NCBI GenBank assembly: GCA_016928235.1
Contig: JAFGLD010000090.1
Coordinates: 1 to 53,811 of the forward strand
Reading direction: 5' to 3'
Source: Anaerolineae bacterium
Lineage (GTDB): Bacteria > Chloroflexota > Anaerolineae > Aggregatilineales > UBA3940
DNA: 53,811 nucleotides
Position numbers and translations under genes: made by a program. Below are positions 1,207-48,461 of this stretch, piece by piece (the stretch's first letter is position 1; every line of letters begins with the position of its first letter). The notes under the pieces are model-generated. The model did no database searches. It saw nothing but the letters and a program-made list of their open reading frames with translations, and had not been told where the DNA came from.

Positions 1207-2100
1207 TTACTCAAACAAACTGTCGACAAAAGCCTGGGCATCAAATGGCAGAAGATCATCCAACCCCTCCCCTACCCCAACATAGCGAACCGGCAATCCA
1301 AGCTCATGACCAACAGCAAACACCATACCACCACGCGCAGTGCTATCCAGCTTGGAGATGATTACACCCGTGACACCAATATCATCTTTGAAGTGTTTTG
1401 CCTGAGATAATGCATTCTGTCCTGTCGTCCCATCTAAAACAAGCCAGACCTCGTGCGGGGCTTCATGGACATTCTTTTCGGCAACGCGACGCACTTTCTT
1501 CAACTCTTCCATGAGGTTGTACTTCGTATGCAGTCGCCCGGCAGTGTCGACGATTAGCAGGTTGTAACCCCGCGCCCGTGACGCCCGCAGGGCATCGTAG
1601 GTCACAGCCCCCGGATCACTGCCGCTCTGTCCTGCAATCACAGGTACGTTCAATCGCTCTCCCCAGGTCTGCAGTTGCTCGATCGCTGCCGCCCGGAATG
1701 TATCGGCAGCGGCAAGCATTACCTTCCAATCATCCTCGACAAACTGCCTGGACAACTTGGCAATGGTCGTCGTCTTTCCTGAACCATTAACACCCACAAC
1801 CAGGATCACGTTGAGCAAGCGTTTGCGATCCAGCGAAGGGATTGTATGGGGGGGCAATAGTTCCAGCAATGTCTCCTTGAGAGCCGTTTCGAGTTGACTG
1901 CGTGTGGTCAACCCTTCGTCACTCACGCGCTTTTTTAGATTGGACGTGACCATCAAAGCAGTCTGCACGCCTAGATCGGCCTGCACGAGTGCCGCTTCGA
2001 GATCATCCCACACGCTTTCGTCTAACTCTGTTACGCCTAAAAGTGTTGCAATCCGGCCCACGAAAGCCTGCCGGGTTCGATTGAGGGAATTACGGAACAC
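1207..2100 (-). CDS. ftsY: Signal recognition particle receptor FtsY
   Basis: GTPase that docks SRP-ribosome complexes at the membrane for cotranslational insertion. The 297-residue protein is essentially the N and G domains. The P-loop GVNGSGKTTTIAKL, the DTAGRLHTKYNLMEELKKV segment and the STARGG motif near the C-terminus are all FtsY/SRP54 signatures, and the RH(T/N)KYNLMEEL form favours FtsY over Ffh. The long acidic A domain of enterobacterial FtsY is absent, as in many other phyla. The start is GTG at 2100 with AGGAG upstream, because the codon just before it in frame is followed further back by a stop. An extended -10 (TGGTATAAT on the minus strand at 2138-2133) lies about 33 bases upstream. 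Confidence 0.95.
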   Translation of the reverse strand: MFRNSLNRTRQAFVGRIATLLGVTELDESVWDDLEAALVQADLGVQTALMVTSNLKKRVSDEGLTTRSQLETALKETLLELLPPHTIPSLDRKRLLNVILVVGVNGSGKTTTIAKLSRQFVEDDWKVMLAAADTFRAAAIEQLQTWGERLNVPVIAGQSGSDPGAVTYDALRASRARGYNLLIVDTAGRLHTKYNLMEELKKVRRVAEKNVHEAPHEVWLVLDGTTGQNALSQAKHFKDDIGVTGVIISKLDSTARGGMVFAVGHELGLPVRYVGVGEGLDDLLPFDAQAFVDSLFE

Positions 2101-2403: not shown

Positions 2404-2880
2404 GTGAGCCACTTGACTCACCTCGATAAGACCGGACAGGCCAGCATGGTTGATGTTGGCCACAAACCCGACACTGAACGATTAGCCATTGCGCGAGGTC
2501 GCGTTACCATGAGCCATGATACTCTGGCACTCATCCAACAGGGCGCGCTCCAAAAAGGCGATGTTCTGGCTGTGGCGCGCATCGCCGGCACAATGGCGGC
2601 CAAGCGCACAGCAGAGCTGATACCTCTCTGCCATCCCCTGCCTATCACACACATCGATGTCTCCCTGTCGATCGATGAAGCGGACTCGGCCATCCTGATT
2701 GAGGCCAGCGTCAAAACTGTCGGCAAAACAGGGGTCGAAATGGAGGCTTTGACGGCCGTCTCTGTTGCAGCACTTACTATCTACGATATGGCCAAAGCCG
2801 TTCAGCGTGATATGCAGATCGAAGCCATTCGCCTTGTCGAAAAGCACGGTGGGCAATCCGGCGATGTGGTATTGGAATAG
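2404..2880 (+). CDS. moaC: Cyclic pyranopterin monophosphate synthase MoaC
   Basis: Second step of molybdenum cofactor synthesis: converts the 3',8-cyclo-GTP made by MoaA to cyclic pyranopterin monophosphate. The 158-residue length is normal. Signatures seen are [18 protein letters not shown] at the N-terminus, the conserved [11 protein letters not shown] loop, and [20 protein letters not shown] with the active-site Lys/Glu region and the DMAKA segment. The start is GTG (SHLTH follows), with AGGA about 10 bases upstream. The next gene begins 9 bases after the stop and encodes the molybdopterin synthase subunits, so the pair forms a Moco operon. moaA, moaB, moeA and mogA are not in the window. 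Confidence 0.95.
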
Positions 2881-2889
2881 ATCGTAACG

Positions 2890-4791
2890 ATGCTTATCAA
2901 CGTTCGCTTCTTTGCAATTCTCCGCGACCGGGCAGGAATGGATCACATGGACATGGAGCTGGCAGAGCCCACCAGTGTCAAAACATTCCTGGAGCTGCTT
3001 GCCGAAGACATCCCTAAGCTCCACCCCCTGATCACGACTACATTGGTCGCCATCAACCAGGAATACGCCTTCCCGGATACTATCATCCAAGACGGCGATG
3101 AGGTTGCCCTCTTTCCCCCTGTTAGCGGCGGTCATGTAACCGTCTGGCCCGAATATTTCGCGATCACACAACACGCGCTCGACATTGATGGGATTGTCAG
3201 CCGGATCACCGATTCTCAAACCGGCGCGACCTACCTGTTCGTCGGAACGGTGCGCGGCATCACACAACATGACAAGGGGCGGCTGAGCACCGAGCACCTG
3301 GTTTACGAAGCCTACTCACCAATGGCCGAGCAGAAGCTGCGCCAGATAGCCGAGGAAATCCGGCAAAGATATCCCAAAGTCCAGGGGATAGCAATCGTGC
3401 AGCGGATCGGGAAGCTGGCGATTGGAGAGACGACAGTCCTGGTTGCCTGCGCCGCGGGACACCGTAAAGACGGTTGTCTCGAAGCGGCTCAATATGGCAT
3501 CGACCGCCTGAAAGAGATCGTCCCAGTTTGGAAGAAAGAGATCAGCCCCGGAGGAGAGGTCTGGGTTGAGGGGCATTACCATCCCACCCCAAGTGATGTT
3601 CGGATAGTAAAACCCCAACCCTTGCCGACGGGAAGGCAGACAGAAGAAACGCTGTCCTTCACATTGAAATGCTCAACATGCGATCGGCAGTATCCCTGGA
3701 CATCGGCTCAAGTCCACTGTTCATGTGGCAGCCCGTTGGAACCGGCAAACACACCGCGCTTCGATGAGAGGCTTATTGTCCGGCAAGCCGCTTCAATGTG
3801 GCGTTATCGATCGCTGCTCATGCCGTCAGGAGTGGCGTGTGTTACGCTAGGCGAAGGCTGGACACCACTTATCACCGTCGAAGCTCTGGAGAGGGTCATT
3901 CATCTCAAAATGGAAAGCCTGAACCCAACCGGATCTTTCAAAGCTCGTGGCGCATCGATGCTGGTCAGCCTGCTCAAGACACAGCGCATCGGACGGATCC
4001 ACGACGACTCCTCCGGAAACGCAGGGGCTGCACTGGCGGCTTACGCGGCACGAGCCGGGTTGTCTGCGCGGGTATATGTCCCGGATACTGCCGCGCCCCA
4101 CAAGCTTGCCCAGATCGAGCTATATGGCGCACAATTATACCGTGTCGCAGGCCCGCGTGAGGCAGCAACACAGGCCGCCCAACAAGCATCGAACAATGGT
4201 ACATCGTTCTACGCAAGCCATGTCTACAACCCCTCCTTTATCTCGGCCTACAAATCGACCGCCTATGAGTTGTGGGAACAATTAGATCACCGGGCCCCAG
4301 ATATCATCGTCATGCCTGTAGGCCATGGCACACAACTGCTGGGTATAGCTGCCGGCTTCAACGATCTACTCCAGGCAGGTATCATCGATCATCTACCAAG
4401 ATTAATTGGGGTGCAAGCACAAGCCTGTGCACCCTTATGGTATCTGTCCAAACACAGTACACAATACGGCGATCCGCCAACCGCTCTTCCTACGCTTGCT
4501 GATGGCATCCACATCTCACATCCAACCAGGGGCAAGCAGGTCATCGATGCTATTAACAGCAGTGATGGAGAGATCATCGCCGTCAGTGAAGCGGAAATTC
4601 GCCAGGGCATCAAGGCATTGGCGTACATGGGCATACTCGTCGAGCCCACCAGCGCTGTCGTATGGCCTGCGTTACAACAGATTACCGTTCAACGCTCAAG
4701 AGATGCTACAATCGTCCTGATCATGACGGGTTCCGGTCTTGGTTGGAGAATGGAAGGCTGTCATCCTTACAGCGACAACCAAAGGTCATAG
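2890..4791 (+). CDS. MoaD-MoaE-threonine-synthase-like triple fusion
   Basis: One uninterrupted 633-residue frame. Residues 1-81 are MoaD (ubiquitin fold) ending in the diagnostic PPVSGG, where Gly81 would normally be the free C-terminus that carries the thiocarboxylate. Residues 82 to about 232 are MoaE, with HRKDGCLEAAQYGIDRLKE and PVWKKE (Lys215/216), the catalytic region of molybdopterin synthase. Residues about 255-633 resemble threonine synthase and related fold-type II PLP enzymes: a Cys4 zinc-ribbon-like start (Cys261, 264, 277, 279), the PLP lysine Lys351 in NPTGSFKARG, and the SSGNAGAALAAYAARAG loop. SFKARGA is closer to dehydratases than the SFKDRG of threonine synthase, so its substrate is open. 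MoaD-MoaE fusions are known (mycobacterial MoaX, which is cleaved after the Gly-Gly), and the same processing would be needed here. No frameshift is seen at either junction. Confidence 0.85.
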   Translation: MLINVRFFAILRDRAGMDHMDMELAEPTSVKTFLELLAEDIPKLHPLITTTLVAINQEYAFPDTIIQDGDEVALFPPVSGGHVTVWPEYFAITQHALDIDGIVSRITDSQTGATYLFVGTVRGITQHDKGRLSTEHLVYEAYSPMAEQKLRQIAEEIRQRYPKVQGIAIVQRIGKLAIGETTVLVACAAGHRKDGCLEAAQYGIDRLKEIVPVWKKEISPGGEVWVEGHYHPTPSDVRIVKPQPLPTGRQTEETLSFTLKCSTCDRQYPWTSAQVHCSCGSPLEPANTPRFDERLIVRQAASMWRYRSLLMPSGVACVTLGEGWTPLITVEALERVIHLKMESLNPTGSFKARGASMLVSLLKTQRIGRIHDDSSGNAGAALAAYAARAGLSARVYVPDTAAPHKLAQIELYGAQLYRVAGPREAATQAAQQASNNGTSFYASHVYNPSFISAYKSTAYELWEQLDHRAPDIIVMPVGHGTQLLGIAAGFNDLLQAGIIDHLPRLIGVQAQACAPLWYLSKHSTQYGDPPTALPTLADGIHISHPTRGKQVIDAINSSDGEIIAVSEAEIRQGIKALAYMGILVEPTSAVVWPALQQITVQRSRDATIVLIMTGSGLGWRMEGCHPYSDNQRS

Positions 4792-4950: not shown

Positions 4951-6180
4951 ATGCGCCGTGTTGTCATAACAGGAATCGGAATAATCAGTCCATTAGGACA
5001 CACTGCTCAAGAAACATGGGAAGCCATCAAAGACGGTCGTTCCGGAATAGGCCCCATTACGCTTCTGGATGTCAGCAATTTCGAAGTCAAACATGCCGCC
5101 GAAGTCAAGAACTTCGACCCCACAACTGTACTTGACCGCCGTGAAGCGCGGCGCCAGGACAGATTCGAATGGTTTGCCAACGCCGCGGCAACAGAAGCAT
5201 TACGACACAGTGGGCTCGAAATCACCGAGGAGAACAATTCAAGAATAGGGGTGGCTATCAGCAGCGGAATAGGCGGCCTAGCAACCCTGGAAGAGCAGGT
5301 AAAGCTGCTCCAGGCCAAAGGGCCAAGAAGCCTGAGCCCGTTCGGGATACCCAGAATTATGGGCAATGGAGCCGCAGGCTCGGTTAGTATCCTCAACAAA
5401 ATCCACGGCCCATCCTTTTCGGTGGCATCTGCCTGTGCCTCCGGAGCAGACGGTATTGGCACGGCAACTCTGCTGATTCGCTCCGGCATCGTCGATGTGA
5501 TGATAGCGGGCGGTTCGGAAGCCCCTATTACAGGACTGGGCATAGGAGGATTCGAACGGATCGGCGCAGCCAGCCTCCGCGATTCTGAGACACCATCACC
5601 CTTCAGTCATGATCGTGATGGCCTGATAGTCGGCGAAGGCGCAGGCATCCTAATTTTGGAGAATCTGGAACATGCCCGTGCCCGGAAAGCTGACATTCTC
5701 GGCGAGATAATCGGGTATGGCGCCTCTGCTGACGCGCATCACATCACCGCCCCCACAGAAGACGGTAGTGGAAGCGCGAAGGCCATAAAATACGCCTTGG
5801 AAAACGCAGGTATATCGCCGGGAAATGTCGACTACATCAATGCTCATGGGACGGGAACCCAACTCAATGACGAGGCCGAGACCAACTCTATCAAATTAGC
5901 ATTGGGAACACACGCCTACAATATCCCTATCAGCTCAACGAAAAGTATGACTGGCCATATAATGGGGGCCACTGGAGCCATCGAGGCCATTTTCTGTATT
6001 CAGGCAATTCGTGATGGTATCATTCCCCCAACAATTAACTATCGAGGCCCCGATCCGGTCTGTGATCTCGACTACGTTCCTAATAAGGCCAGAGAAAAGG
6101 AGATCACAATAGCTATGAGTAATTCTTTTGGCTTTGGGGGCCACAACGCGGTGTTAATATTCAAGGCATTCAAGAATTAG
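4951..6180 (+). CDS. fabF: Beta-ketoacyl-ACP synthase II
   Basis: Elongating condensing enzyme of type II fatty acid synthesis, joining malonyl-ACP to acyl-ACP in the cytoplasm. The Cys-His-His triad is complete: Cys162 in ASACASGADGIG, His299 in NAHGTGTQLNDE and His336 in STKSMTGHIMGATGA. The GFGGHNAVLIF end is also typical. The frame is open back to 4876, but MRRVVITGIGIISPLG at 4951 matches the family start and has GAAAGG upstream, giving 409 residues (normal size). It precedes rnc, a common bacterial order, but acpP is not next to it here. Confidence 0.95.
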   Translation: MRRVVITGIGIISPLGHTAQETWEAIKDGRSGIGPITLLDVSNFEVKHAAEVKNFDPTTVLDRREARRQDRFEWFANAAATEALRHSGLEITEENNSRIGVAISSGIGGLATLEEQVKLLQAKGPRSLSPFGIPRIMGNGAAGSVSILNKIHGPSFSVASACASGADGIGTATLLIRSGIVDVMIAGGSEAPITGLGIGGFERIGAASLRDSETPSPFSHDRDGLIVGEGAGILILENLEHARARKADILGEIIGYGASADAHHITAPTEDGSGSAKAIKYALENAGISPGNVDYINAHGTGTQLNDEAETNSIKLALGTHAYNIPISSTKSMTGHIMGATGAIEAIFCIQAIRDGIIPPTINYRGPDPVCDLDYVPNKAREKEITIAMSNSFGFGGHNAVLIFKAFKN

Positions 6181-6270: not shown

Positions 6271-6981
6271 ATGACAAACACCCTCGATCTCAGTCAATTG
6301 CAGCAAATCACAGGTATCCAGTTTCGTGACGAGCATATTCTGGAGCACAGCCTGACACATCCTTCCTACCGCAATGAACATCCCGGCCTCAAGCTGCAAG
6401 ACAATGAACGGTTGGAATTTCTCGGTGATGCTGTCCTGGACTTTATCAGCGGAGAGTGGCTGTATGAGCGATATCCGGACGGCTCAGAAGGCTATCTGAC
6501 TCGTTTGAGATCCGCCCTCGTCAGGACAGAGACACTCGCCGGATTTAGCATCCACTTCAGCCTCGATCAGGCCCTTTTGCTGGGACGCGGTGAGGAAGAA
6601 CACGGTGGGCGGCAACGAGCAAACAACCTCTGTGCCGTGTTCGAGGCTTTTGTCGGCGCTATTTATCTCGATCAGGGTATACAGGTCGTGCGCGATCTGG
6701 TGTTTCCTTTCTTCGAGGAAGCGCTGGAGACCATCCTGCAGCACGACTTGCACAAAGACCCCAAGAGTCTGCTTCAAGAATGGAGCCAGGCCAATATAGG
6801 GCTGACTCCGAGCTACCAGACCATCGACACTCAGGGGCCCGATCACGCCAAGCTCTTTACAGTGGCTGTATATCTTGGGGATAAACGCTATGGGGAAGGC
6901 CGCGGAACAAATAAACAGTCTGCCGCACAAGCAGCAGCACAGCAAGCCCTTGAGATACTGAAGTCGTCGCCCGAATCATGA
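6271..6981 (+). CDS. rnc: Ribonuclease III
   Basis: Double-strand-specific endonuclease for rRNA and mRNA processing. The 236-residue protein has the signature NERLEFLGDAVLDF in the N-terminal RNase III domain, the second acidic cluster NLCAVFEAFVGAIYLDQG, and a C-terminal double-stranded RNA-binding domain (from about DPKSLLQEW to the KQSAAQAAAQQALEIL helix). Its stop overlaps the ATG of the next gene (ATGA), so the two are translationally coupled. Confidence 0.95.
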   Translation: MTNTLDLSQLQQITGIQFRDEHILEHSLTHPSYRNEHPGLKLQDNERLEFLGDAVLDFISGEWLYERYPDGSEGYLTRLRSALVRTETLAGFSIHFSLDQALLLGRGEEEHGGRQRANNLCAVFEAFVGAIYLDQGIQVVRDLVFPFFEEALETILQHDLHKDPKSLLQEWSQANIGLTPSYQTIDTQGPDHAKLFTVAVYLGDKRYGEGRGTNKQSAAQAAAQQALEILKSSPES

Positions 6982-44787: not shown

Positions 44788-45666
44788 ATGTCACAATTGT
44801 CTGGTCTTATCCGCACCATGCGTCCCAAACAGTGGACAAAAAACGGTTTTATATTCATCCCGCTGCTGTTCGACCGTAAGCTTGATGATATTCCTCACCT
44901 GATTGCCACACTGGCCGGCTTTGGGCTGCTATGTCTGATCAGCAGCACCATCTATCTCATCAACGACCTGGCAGATATCGAGGCAGACAAGGCACATCCA
45001 ACCAAGCAGAATCGCCCCCTACCCTCAGGACAACTCTCCAAGACCATCGCGCTCGGCGCAGCTATCGTCCTACCATTGATCGCGCTGCCACTCGCGTTCC
45101 GGCTCAACCCGAACTTTTGCGCAGTCCTGGCCGGCTACCTGGTCTTGCAACTGGCCTATTCGTTTTACCTGAAACACATTGTGGTTATCGATGTGATGAC
45201 CGTTGCCGCCGGGTTCGTGCTGCGAGTCGTCGGTGGTGTCATCCTGGTCGATGTTGTTCGTTTTTCACCCTGGTTGTATATTGCCACCACCATGCTGGCT
45301 CTTTTCCTGGGGTTCGGCAAGCGTCGTCACGAGCTTATAACACTGCAAGAAAACGCAAACAGCCACCGTGCCATCCTCGAACAGTATAACATAGCCTTGC
45401 TGGACGAGATTATCATGATCGTATCCGGCGCCTCGATTCTGACATACGCCCTCTATACTTTCAGCGCGGAAGGGCTGCCGGAAAACCATGCCATGATGCT
45501 CACCATCCCATTCGCGCTCTATGTTATCTTCCGCTACCTGTACCTGATCCACGTCCGCGGCGAAGGCGGCGCCCCCGATGAAATCATACTGCGTGACCGT
45601 CCCTTGCAGGCAACCGTCGCCTCGTGGGGAATCGCGGTAGTGATCATCCTGTATATCCTGAAATGA
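44788..45666 (+). CDS. UbiA-family prenyltransferase, decaprenyl-phosphate phosphoribosyltransferase-like
   Basis: 292-residue membrane protein with about eight helices. The first UbiA Asp-rich motif is NDLADIEADKAHPTK, and the second region is YSFYLKHIVVIDVMTVAAGF. The start (MRPKQWTKNGFIFIPLLF) and HPTKQNRPLPSGQL match the subfamily that makes polyprenyl-phosphoryl ribose (DprE-pathway UbiA) better than quinone-type UbiA. Which acceptor is used cannot be decided from motifs. It is first in an operon with mevalonate-pathway genes (ATGA overlap with the next), placing polyprenyl use next to isoprenoid supply. Confidence 0.8.
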   Translation: MSQLSGLIRTMRPKQWTKNGFIFIPLLFDRKLDDIPHLIATLAGFGLLCLISSTIYLINDLADIEADKAHPTKQNRPLPSGQLSKTIALGAAIVLPLIALPLAFRLNPNFCAVLAGYLVLQLAYSFYLKHIVVIDVMTVAAGFVLRVVGGVILVDVVRFSPWLYIATTMLALFLGFGKRRHELITLQENANSHRAILEQYNIALLDEIIMIVSGASILTYALYTFSAEGLPENHAMMLTIPFALYVIFRYLYLIHVRGEGGAPDEIILRDRPLQATVASWGIAVVIILYILK

Positions 45667-46592
45667 CATCCTACACGGCCACTGCGCCGGGCAAGATCAT
45701 CCTGTTTGGCGAACACGCCGTCGTCTATGGCCAACCGGCATTGGCGGTGCCTGTCCACAAGGTTCAGGCCAGTGCAATGGTGACTCCCTGTCCGGAGAAC
45801 AGCGGTCTGATCATCGAATCGAGCAGCCTCAACCTCCGGCTCGCATTGGCCGAAGCCGCAACGCACGCTCTGGTAGTGACTGCCCAATTGGTGCTGGAAA
45901 AACTCAAGGAACCGGAGCCCGACGCGCTCATCACGATCCAATCGACCATCCCGATTGCCGGCGGGCTCGGCAGTGGGGCGGCAGTCTCCGCGGCGTTAGC
46001 GAGGGCACTATCGGGTTACCTGGGACACCCCCTCGATCCGGCCGATCTGTCTGCCCTGGTCTATGAGATCGAGAAGCTACACCACGGCACCCCCAGCGGC
46101 ATCGACAACACAGTCGTCTGCTATGGCCAGCCTGTCTATTTTGTACGTGATACACCTCCTGAGGTGTTTCGCGTTGGGAAGCCATTCCACCTGCTCATCG
46201 CCGACACGGGCGTTGCCAGTCTGACCCACATCGCCGTGGGGGGGGTACGGGAACGATGGCAGAGTGCTCCTCAAAAGTACACTGCGCTGTTCGCCGATAT
46301 CGGGCAGATTGCCCGGCAGGCGCGGGAAGCCATCGAGACAGGTAACATTGCAGCGATTGGTCCTCTCATGACAAACAACCAGTCACTCCTGCGCCGGATC
46401 GGCGTTTCAAGCGACGAGATCGAGAGGCTCATCGAAGCTGCTGAGCAGGCCGGAGCCGAAGGCACCAAGCTCTCCGGCGGCGGGATCGGGGGCAATGTCA
46501 TCGTGCTGGCAGCACCGGAACACACGGAGCGTATCAGCGAGGCGCTGCGACAGGCTGGCGCGGTACGGATCATCCATACACTCGTCACGTGA
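45663..46592 (+). CDS. mvk: Mevalonate kinase
   Basis: 309-residue GHMP-family kinase that phosphorylates mevalonate. Motif 1 is APGKIILFGEHAVVYGQPAL, motif 2 is IPIAGGLGSGAAVSAALARA (the ATP loop), EIEKLHHGTPSGIDNTVVCY carries the catalytic Asp, and motif 3 is GTKLSGGGIGGNVIVLA. The HGTPSGID segment separates mevalonate kinase from galacto- and homoserine kinases. The start is ATG 45663, overlapping the prenyltransferase stop (ATGA). Confidence 0.95.
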   Translation: MTSYTATAPGKIILFGEHAVVYGQPALAVPVHKVQASAMVTPCPENSGLIIESSSLNLRLALAEAATHALVVTAQLVLEKLKEPEPDALITIQSTIPIAGGLGSGAAVSAALARALSGYLGHPLDPADLSALVYEIEKLHHGTPSGIDNTVVCYGQPVYFVRDTPPEVFRVGKPFHLLIADTGVASLTHIAVGGVRERWQSAPQKYTALFADIGQIARQAREAIETGNIAAIGPLMTNNQSLLRRIGVSSDEIERLIEAAEQAGAEGTKLSGGGIGGNVIVLAAPEHTERISEALRQAGAVRIIHTLVT

Positions 46593-46606
46593 GGCAACCT
46601 ATCGAC

Positions 46607-47398
46607 ATGTTGATCTTTCTCAAACTGGGCGGCTCACTCATCACCGATAAATCGGGCATCGAAAAAGCCAGACCTGAAGCGATCTCGCGGCTGGCGGATG
46701 AGATTGCCGCGGCCATGAAATCTCGCCGTGACCTCTCATTGGTTATCGGGCATGGAAGTGGGAGCTTCGGCCACACAGCCGCCAGGAAATATGGCACCCG
46801 GTCAGGCGTTCAGGGACCGGATGCCTGGCAAGGTTTTGCCCAAGTAGCTTACGTTGCATCACAACTCAACAGTCTGATCTTCCATAGCCTGCTCAACGCC
46901 GATATACCGGCCTTTCACATCCAGCCGTCGGCATCTGCCGTCTGCCGCGGTGGTCAGATTATCGATATGGCGATCAGGCCCATCGAGCACACGCTGAAAG
47001 CCGGGCTGGTACCGCTCATCTACGGTGATGTAGCCGTCGATGAAGTGAGGGGCGGGACGATCATCAGCACGGAAGAGATATTCGACTACCTGGCCAGGAA
47101 GATCATCCCTGCGTGCATCCTGATCGCCGGAGATTATGAGGGCGTGCTCGACGGTAACGGACAGGTCATTCCGTCGATCACCCCATCGAATCTCGATGAT
47201 GTTAAGGAAGCCCTTGGCGGATCGGACCAGGTCGATGTCACAGGTGGGATGGCCTCCAAAGTGACTTCGATGATGGCGCTCTGTACGATGATCCCCTCCC
47301 TTAGCATACACATCTTCTCCGGACAGCAGCCGGGCAACGTTTTCCGAGCCTTAACGGAAGAGGACATTTCCGTCGGGACGCGCCTTTCGTCCGGATAG
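46607..47398 (+). CDS. ipk: Isopentenyl phosphate kinase
   Basis: 263 residues of the amino acid kinase fold. It makes isopentenyl diphosphate from isopentenyl phosphate. The family start MLIFLKLGGSLITDK, the catalytic His in GHGSGSFGHTAARKYG, YGDVAVDE, and the late motif VTGGMASKVTSMM are all visible. The start could also be GTG 46589, which overlaps the mevalonate kinase stop; ATG 46607 fits the family better, and GAGG lies upstream. The enzyme is typical of archaea and rare in bacteria. Next to mevalonate kinase and a decarboxylase it marks the alternative mevalonate pathway. Confidence 0.93.
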   Translation: MLIFLKLGGSLITDKSGIEKARPEAISRLADEIAAAMKSRRDLSLVIGHGSGSFGHTAARKYGTRSGVQGPDAWQGFAQVAYVASQLNSLIFHSLLNADIPAFHIQPSASAVCRGGQIIDMAIRPIEHTLKAGLVPLIYGDVAVDEVRGGTIISTEEIFDYLARKIIPACILIAGDYEGVLDGNGQVIPSITPSNLDDVKEALGGSDQVDVTGGMASKVTSMMALCTMIPSLSIHIFSGQQPGNVFRALTEEDISVGTRLSSG

Positions 47399-47468
47399 AT
47401 TGACGGAAGAAACCACACAGCATCCGCGCAGTTGCTAACATCAAGCACAAAAAGGATAGACCTATCAC

Positions 47469-48461
47469 ATGCCAACCCGGAAAGCAACCGCACGCGCGCA
47501 TCCGAATATCGCCCTCATCAAGTATTGGGGAAATCGAGATGATAATCTAAGAATCCCTGTCAACGGCTCAATCTCAATCAATCTGGCCGGTCTGGAGACT
47601 ATCACAACGGTGAATTTCAGCAAAGCAATAGCTGAAGATCGATTGATGTTAAACGGGGAACAACAGGCAGGCGAAACCACCGGTCGAGTAAGCCGGCATC
47701 TGGATCATATCCGCCATCTTGCCGGGATCAACCTACCGGCGGATGTCCAATCAAGAAACAATTTTCCCACCGGCACTGGGATCGCTTCATCCGCGTCGGC
47801 CTTTGCCGCGCTGACCGCGGCAGCTTGCAGCGCGCTCGACCTCCACCCGGCGGAAGCCGATCTGTCGGCCCTGGCCCGGCTGGGCTCCGGCTCGGCCTGC
47901 CGATCGGTGCCGGGTGGGTTCACGGAGTGGCATGTTGGGGTCGATCACCAGACTTCCCACGCCACCGGCATCGCTCCGGCCGAACACTGGAACCTGGTCG
48001 ATCTGGTCACCATCGTCAGCCGGGAACACAAGATCATCGGCTCAACCGAGGGACACCGTCTGGCAGACACATCGCCGCTGCAAGCCGCGCGCATTGCGGA
48101 TACCCCCCGGCGGCTGGACATCTGCCGGGCAGCCATCCTTGAGCGCGACTTCGAGGCTCTGGCCGACATCATCGAGCAGGATGCGCTGATGATGCATGCC
48201 GTCCTGCTGACCTCCCGCCCTACCCTGATCTACTGGCTGCCCGCCACCCTGTCAATCATACAGGCTGTTCAGACCTGGCGAAGCGATGGGATCCCCGCAG
48301 CCTTCACCATCGACGCAGGGCCCAATGTCCATGTGATCAGCACAACCGAATACCGGAATAAGCTGAACACCCTGCTCGGCGAGATCAAAGGGGTGCAGTC
48401 CGTCCTGACAACTGGTATTGGAGGACCAGCGCATGTCATCAGCGAACATCTCGACAACTAG
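47469..48461 (+). CDS. mvaD: Diphosphomevalonate / phosphomevalonate decarboxylase
   Basis: 330-residue GHMP-type decarboxylase: HPNIALIKYWGNRDDNLRIP, NFPTGTGIASSASAFAALTA, GSGSACRSVPGGFTEW (conserved Ser and Arg) and FTIDAGPNVHV with the catalytic Asp. Classical diphosphomevalonate decarboxylases have KYWGK; here the second Lys is Asn (KYWGNRD), at a site reported to lie near the phosphates. With isopentenyl phosphate kinase next door and no phosphomevalonate kinase in the cluster, it is probably specific for mevalonate 5-phosphate and makes isopentenyl phosphate. That is inferred, by analogy with the Roseiflexus enzyme. AAGGAT is upstream. Confidence 0.88.
   Translation: MPTRKATARAHPNIALIKYWGNRDDNLRIPVNGSISINLAGLETITTVNFSKAIAEDRLMLNGEQQAGETTGRVSRHLDHIRHLAGINLPADVQSRNNFPTGTGIASSASAFAALTAAACSALDLHPAEADLSALARLGSGSACRSVPGGFTEWHVGVDHQTSHATGIAPAEHWNLVDLVTIVSREHKIIGSTEGHRLADTSPLQAARIADTPRRLDICRAAILERDFEALADIIEQDALMMHAVLLTSRPTLIYWLPATLSIIQAVQTWRSDGIPAAFTIDAGPNVHVISTTEYRNKLNTLLGEIKGVQSVLTTGIGGPAHVISEHLDN

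Follow-up and report, generated by a model that had tools for sequence, protein, structure and literature searches.

An in-frame fusion of MoaD, MoaE and a threonine-synthase-like PLP enzyme among uncultured Chloroflexota-like bacteria of one family

Uncultured Chloroflexota-like bacteria of one small family encode both subunits of molybdopterin (MPT) synthase, MoaD and MoaE, in a single chain with a threonine-synthase-like PLP enzyme. The gene lies in a 53,811-nucleotide stretch of DNA, contig JAFGLD010000090.1 of the Anaerolineae assembly GCA_016928235.1, which is referred to here as the window (Table 1). The join is real and conserved and is not an assembly error. It looks as if neighbouring genes had merged, with no new step added to cofactor synthesis, and the reading that we favour, with moderate confidence, is that two adjacent same-strand genes of an old conserved block (divergent ftsY, then moaC-moaDE-PLP gene-fabF-rnc) fused specifically in this lineage, with MoaD cut off and the PLP enzyme a passenger.

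The frame begins with ATG 9 nt after the moaC stop and contains no internal stop over its 633 codons. Pfam models for ThiS/MoaD (PF02597, residues 5–81, 60 bits against a cut-off of 22.5), MoaE (PF02391, residues 92–209, 106 bits, above the gathering score) and PALP (PF00291, residues 318–614, 242 bits) all score above their cut-offs, which bears out the triple fusion proposed by the sequence-only reading, and the MoaD domain also passes TIGR01682 with 66.3 bits against 66.15. The landmarks named in that reading are all found where it placed them. These include PPVSGG at residues 76–81, which places an internal Gly-Gly at the end of MoaD; the MoaE pair HR (H191-R192) and the motif DRLKEIVPVWKKE at residues 205–217 (D205–E217, of the LK..P.WKKE type, with WKKE at 214–217); the Cys4 segment; and the PLP lysine K351. 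We take the HR and LK..P.WKKE residues, including the catalytic lysines, to have the roles that they have in Escherichia coli MoaE. Within the PLP domain, the columns of C261, C264, C277 and C279 are at least 90% conserved among 65 orthologues, and K351, positioned in NPTGSFKARG, is invariant in 65 sequences. SGG is kept at the MoaD end of all three complete fused proteins (the one in the window and those of loci L115 and L116), and a Gly-Gly at this position is also observed at L119, L040 and L041.

Table 1. Features of the fusion gene and of its neighbours in the window
Feature	Coordinates	Strand	Remarks
ftsY	1207..2100	-	Divergent upstream border of the block; FtsY probe
moaC	2404..2880	+	Cyclic pyranopterin monophosphate synthase; scores 200.6 bits with Pfam MoaC and exceeds the cut-off of NCBIfam TIGR00581
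Triple-fusion gene, MoaD-MoaE-threonine-synthase-like PLP enzyme	2890..4791	+	633 aa, 69.3 kDa, single frame
MoaD domain, residues 1–81, ending PPVSGG (Gly80-Gly81)	2890..3132	+	PF02597 at residues 5–81
MoaD-MoaE junction, residues 78–84	3121..3141	+	Proposed cleavage site after Gly81; pLDDT <50; precedent in MoaX and D. radiodurans MoaD-MoaE
MoaE domain, residues 83–230	3136..3579	+	PF02391; HR and DRLKEIVPVWKKE motifs
MoaE-PLP linker, residues 229–253	3574..3648	+	Non-conserved, predicted disordered (pLDDT <50)
Cys4 zinc-ribbon-like segment of the PLP domain (C261, C264, C277, C279)	3670..3729	+	
Fold-type II PLP domain, residues 318–614	3841..4731	+	K351 at 3940-3942, DSSGN at 4006-4020, YASH at 4210-4221
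fabF (KAS II-like)	4951..6180	+	Downstream neighbour in the conserved block
rnc (RNase III)	6271..6981	+	Found downstream of the PLP gene more often than any other conserved neighbour

The same domain order was found in one frame in three other genera of the same family, at L115 (genome G396), L116 (G397) and L117 (G401). The whole architecture is shared with the first two at 59% and 55% identity respectively, while L117, which starts at a contig edge inside the tail of MoaE, stays open all the way into the PLP domain. The assembly that contains the window consists of 372 contigs, and an assembly or sequencing artefact could have joined two separate genes there, yet the same in-frame join is present in three independently assembled genomes of other genera, each with a different linker, and such an artefact is extremely improbable. 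The region at about 3600-3660, which had been singled out as the place where an error might split the frame, is intact, and L115, L116 and L117 read in-frame through the same junction. The linker sequences differ among the four fused proteins, with the frame kept in all. Unfused MoaE proteins of relatives stop just past ...VWVEGHYxPxPxD, the point at which the fusion linker starts, so that a full-length MoaE has been joined to a full-length PLP enzyme.

Within the family, six of nine genomes have the PLP domain: the four with the fusion; G402, where moaDE ends in its own stop at a locus other than that of the PLP gene; and G288, where the PLP gene stands alone and unfused. No fusion was found outside the family in the 145 further genomes of the order (154 searched in all), nor elsewhere in the class among the matches listed from 396 genomes, and the viral contigs searched contained no relative. 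Three loci that were considered as further fusions (L038, L090 and L125) were rejected, as moaDE and the PLP gene lie in different frames. In G398, a genome of the same genus that is 87% complete, moaC, moaE and the PLP gene are all absent. G400 (95% complete) shows an empty site (L206, contig C48), with ftsY directly adjoining fabF and the whole moaC-moaDE-PLP block absent. In G399 (L204, at the end of contig C206), fabF follows about 120 nt behind a moaD gene ending ...FPPVSGG-stop, and the interval lacks moaE and the PLP gene; the same functional border is thus naturally separated there, at a point where the contig ends.

In the rest of the class the fused parts occur as separate adjacent genes, often arranged moaC-(moaDE or MOSC)-PLP gene-fabF-rnc. 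Neighbours were counted at 104 loci that encode orthologues of the PLP domain; most of these loci belong to the class and a few to other phyla. The most frequent is rnc, downstream on the same strand at 55 loci, followed by moaC at 26, where it is upstream and on the same strand in every case, and fabF, downstream on the same strand at 24. An smc gene is found nearby at 18 loci (on the same strand in 15 of these) and ftsY upstream on the opposite strand at 14; moaD and moaE are upstream on the same strand at nine, a selD-like gene is downstream on the same strand at nine, a MOSC-domain gene lies upstream on the same strand between moaC and the PLP gene at five, and ridA is upstream on the same strand at five. 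Where MoaE and the PLP enzyme are encoded by separate genes in other families, the distance between them is 27–81 nt (L090, L038, L121 and L125). The moaDE gene is itself a MoaX-type fusion in many relatives, and at least four genera have retained its join with the PLP gene. Not every member of the class has MoaD fused to MoaE: at L131, L121 and L126 (G148, G387 and G298, one family) moaD and moaE are separate genes in different frames. None of these neighbours was found at 21 loci of other threonine-synthase-like paralogues. The flanks of those loci are shorter, about 1.5 kb, but among the first 29 PLP loci, which are of that size too, about a dozen have moaC inside 1.5 kb. On the tree, the moa-linked PLP genes are clustered without forming one clade (8 changes versus 24 expected). 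Given this clustering and the constant upstream, same-strand position of moaC, there may be a weak functional link between the PLP gene and the moa genes.

The PLP enzyme has a role that does not need the molybdenum cofactor (Moco), since its gene is kept in genomes that lack moaC and moaA. Among 34 genomes bearing the PLP gene, mostly at least 95% complete, moaC is present in 30, a co-occurrence that is uninformative because Moco genes are common. The four without it comprise G288 and a trio from a single genus (G263, G357 and G243, 95–97% complete); the trio also lacks moaA and keeps the PLP gene. In G288 the PLP gene and ftsY have neither moaC nor moaDE between them, but moaA is still present, which makes this the weaker case of a Moco-free genome. 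As a counterpoint, the PLP gene and the moa genes are often absent together in the family with the fusion (G398, G399 and G400). The idea of a Moco-specific PLP enzyme, which came from the presence of moaC beside many PLP genes, was weakened by wider sampling. As a separate observation on molybdenum enzymes, three molybdopterin oxidoreductase (PF00384) genes in the genome of the window (G000; C107:13696-14967, C107:3045-4361 and C229:45891-47162) each contain one in-frame TGA that is read through, and these are probably selenocysteine-containing formate dehydrogenases.

The PLP domain is most similar to threonine synthases, and judged by its sequence it is not a canonical member of that group. 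Its nearest solved structures, by sequence and by fold, are threonine synthases (2d1f, 2zsj, 1uim and 1e5x, Z about 41–50); the bacterial enzymes show 30–33% identity to it over 310–325 residues at Z of about 41, and the domain is modeled at a pLDDT of 93. Threonine-synthase models score 121–275 bits on the domain, versus 57–73 bits for CysK/CysM models with cut-offs of 344–394. The best curated model, NCBIfam PRK06450 (NF005035) 'threonine synthase', gives 274.9 bits over residues 259–617, below its cut-off of 301, and TIGR00260 gives 133.6 bits, below 167.1. The function named by PRK06450 is to our knowledge putative, and our literature searches on PRK06450, and on a connection of MoaD with threonine synthase, returned nothing.

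The substrate site sets the domain apart from the enzymes that it resembles. Canonical ThrC shares the fold-type II PLP fold and the PLP lysine in TGSFK and has the O-phosphohomoserine site signature NSxNxxR plus GNxGN, which is common to the bacterial and the more distant Arabidopsis enzymes and is present in L004, L067, L068, L069, L074 and 1e5x. In Thermus thermophilus threonine synthase, the signature residues Asn154, Ser155, Arg160 and Asn188 bind the phosphate of O-phosphohomoserine. The signature is found in none of 105 orthologues of the PLP domain; DSSGN and Y[AG]SH, which the fusion has as DSSGN and YASH, are instead invariant in all 105. A search for a threonine synthase elsewhere in the same genome, proposed by the sequence-only reading, located a canonical thrC (L004), which passes TIGR00260 with 223.3 bits against 167.1, on another contig beside a homoserine-kinase-like gene; relatives also have one (L067, L068 and L074). 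The description 'threonine-synthase-like' therefore holds for the fold and fails for the substrate-site signature, and with the signature absent from all orthologues and a canonical thrC encoded elsewhere, the domain is not filed as a threonine synthase. That it nonetheless makes threonine from O-phosphohomoserine as a true threonine synthase, joined to MoaE by accident, is unlikely: the nearest structures and the names of the closest curated models speak for it, the latter at scores below their cut-offs, and the missing signature and the separate thrC genes of this genome and its relatives speak against it. A different domain combination is seen at L003:1009-2745 (G000, contig C196), which encodes another threonine-synthase-like protein of the same genome, 578 residues long and, by sequence appearance, with a C-terminal response-regulator receiver domain.

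Our preferred guess for the PLP domain is an amino-acid lyase that would catalyze elimination or deamination of a hydroxy- or β/γ-substituted amino acid with release of an enamine. The GxG-rich loop and the DSSGNAG loop also resemble those of dehydratases. A ridA gene is positioned 26–38 nt upstream of the PLP gene at L089, L095, L105, L147 and L149, representing five genomes from two families in one supported clade, and as the link is confined to that clade it probably has one origin. RidA genes cluster with those of enamine-releasing PLP enzymes (PMC4433059), and with this precedent the directly upstream ridA points to 2-aminoacrylate, 2-aminocrotonate or a similar enamine as the released product. 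The adjacency is thereby a hint to the substrate class of the whole branch. This large conserved 'threonine synthase' branch, lacking the site signature in the 105 orthologues examined, is probably misnamed in databases and is the more valuable by-product of the analysis; it adjoins moaC, selD-like, MOSC, ridA, fabF or rnc genes, and its substrate is directly testable.

The AlphaFold model of the full chain shows confident MoaD, MoaE and PLP domains with a pTM of 0.62, and runs of pLDDT below 50 only at residues 78–84, at 229–253 and in the C-terminal tail. With a pTM of only 0.62, the model predicts three folded domains on two flexible linkers without a fixed arrangement between them. The first linker is the site at which MoaD would have to be released to expose the free Gly81 carboxylate that it needs. 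M. tuberculosis MoaX must be cleaved behind Gly82 to become active (PMC4326299); the D. radiodurans MoaD-MoaE protein is cut by a JAMM protease (PMC8832034). The genome with the fusion encodes a JAMM protein with a complete HxHP..SxxD metal motif and a MoeZR-like ThiF-rhodanese (MoeB-rhodanese) protein. By analogy with these precedents, and with the predicted disorder at residues 78–84, the earlier suggestion that MoaD must be freed after Gly81 gains support; MoaD is probably released there as in MoaX, leaving a bifunctional MoaE-PLP protein, and the likely products have computed masses of 9.0 kDa (MoaD, residues 1–81) and 60.3 kDa (the MoaE-PLP chain). Internal re-initiation ahead of the PLP domain was rejected, as none of the four linkers has an in-frame ATG, GTG or TTG with a Shine-Dalgarno match of at least 4, a result that is not absolute: in the control set of unfused PLP genes, 54 of 87 have such a match and 33 do not.

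In this family the moaDE stop was lost, so that full-length MoaE continues through about 25 disordered residues into the full-length PLP enzyme. In the sequence of events that we propose, a JAMM-type or other protease would cleave the chain behind Gly81, and the MoeZR-like protein would then adenylate and thiocarboxylate the exposed C-terminus of MoaD. MoaD would re-associate with MoaE, to whose C-terminus the PLP enzyme stays attached as a passenger. The PLP domain would perform its own Moco-independent amino-acid reaction, with the fusion serving mainly for one-to-one co-expression or being neutral. A conserved gene block can in this way become a three-enzyme chain, in which the obligatory free Gly-Gly end of MoaD is apparently preserved only by proteolysis.

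The alternative is a mechanistic coupling between the PLP domain and MPT synthase, in which the PLP domain uses or supplies the thiocarboxylate sulfur of MoaD, for example, or gates MoaD release; this would join amino-acid and molybdenum-cofactor metabolism in one protein; the chance of this appears small. The sequence-only reading had raised a sulfur-related or gating role in Moco synthesis, and the evidence does not support it: across the class the PLP enzyme has an ordinary gene of its own, which persists without moaC and moaA and is linked to rnc more often than to moa genes. Coupling through sulfur would have thiocarboxylated MoaD feed the PLP domain for cysteine or homocysteine formation, or have the PLP domain free sulfide for MoaD. 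Carriers of the ThiS/MoaD fold feed fold-type II PLP enzymes in the CysO-CysM system, and the MOSC-domain gene between moaC and the PLP gene (five loci) and the selD-like gene downstream (nine) are consistent with such a role; even so, we give it little credence, with the PLP domain grouping with threonine synthases and not cysteine synthases, its gene kept where moaC and moaA are lacking, no docking predicted across a linker modeled as disordered, and a separate CysK/M-like-JAMM-CysO-like-MoeZR locus present in the relative G288. A regulatory version would make the uncleaved fusion an inactive reserve, with its C-terminal domain sensing amino-acid or PLP status and so controlling MoaD release and, through it, Moco synthesis. 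This would be in line with the incomplete and possibly regulated cutting of MoaX (PMC4326299) and with the inhibition of archaeal MPT synthase by SAMP1 linkage (PMC4443979). It is very doubtful, however, given that the fusion has no known allosteric domain, that the conserved catalytic lysine and PLP-site motifs look like those of an enzyme rather than a sensor, and that the PLP gene exists without moa genes.

The passenger reading, which we prefer, places the protein beside several known systems. MoaX of M. tuberculosis and DR2607 of D. radiodurans likewise combine MoaD, with an internal Gly-Gly, and MoaE in one chain; unlike them, the protein described here has a complete PLP enzyme behind MoaE, connected by a disordered linker, and its cleavage is only predicted. 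The CysO-CysM-Mec+ system couples the same kinds of parts, a MoaD/ThiS-fold protein, a JAMM protease and a fold-type II PLP enzyme, but does so through separate genes and with a PLP enzyme of the cysteine-synthase branch; JAMM linkage of the CysO-CysM type was not encountered, the JAMM genes of the genome being on other contigs. A survey of such fusions, as far as its Moco section goes, reports MoaD-MoaE fusions in 775 of 33,957 bacterial genomes, catalogues MoaC-MoaE, MoaC-MoaB and MoaD-MoeB fusions in archaea and bacteria, and comments on possible frameshifts in conserved syntenic blocks for MoaC fusions (PMC11237513). The fusions catalogued in that section unite Moco genes, whereas the partner here is no known Moco enzyme; the section contains no MoaDE-PLP fusion, and our literature search found no description of a PLP domain behind MoaE. 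Farther along the window, at 45624-48461, consecutive genes resemble those for mevalonate kinase, isopentenyl phosphate kinase and diphosphomevalonate decarboxylase, which by sequence appearance would constitute an archaeal-type mevalonate pathway in a bacterium.
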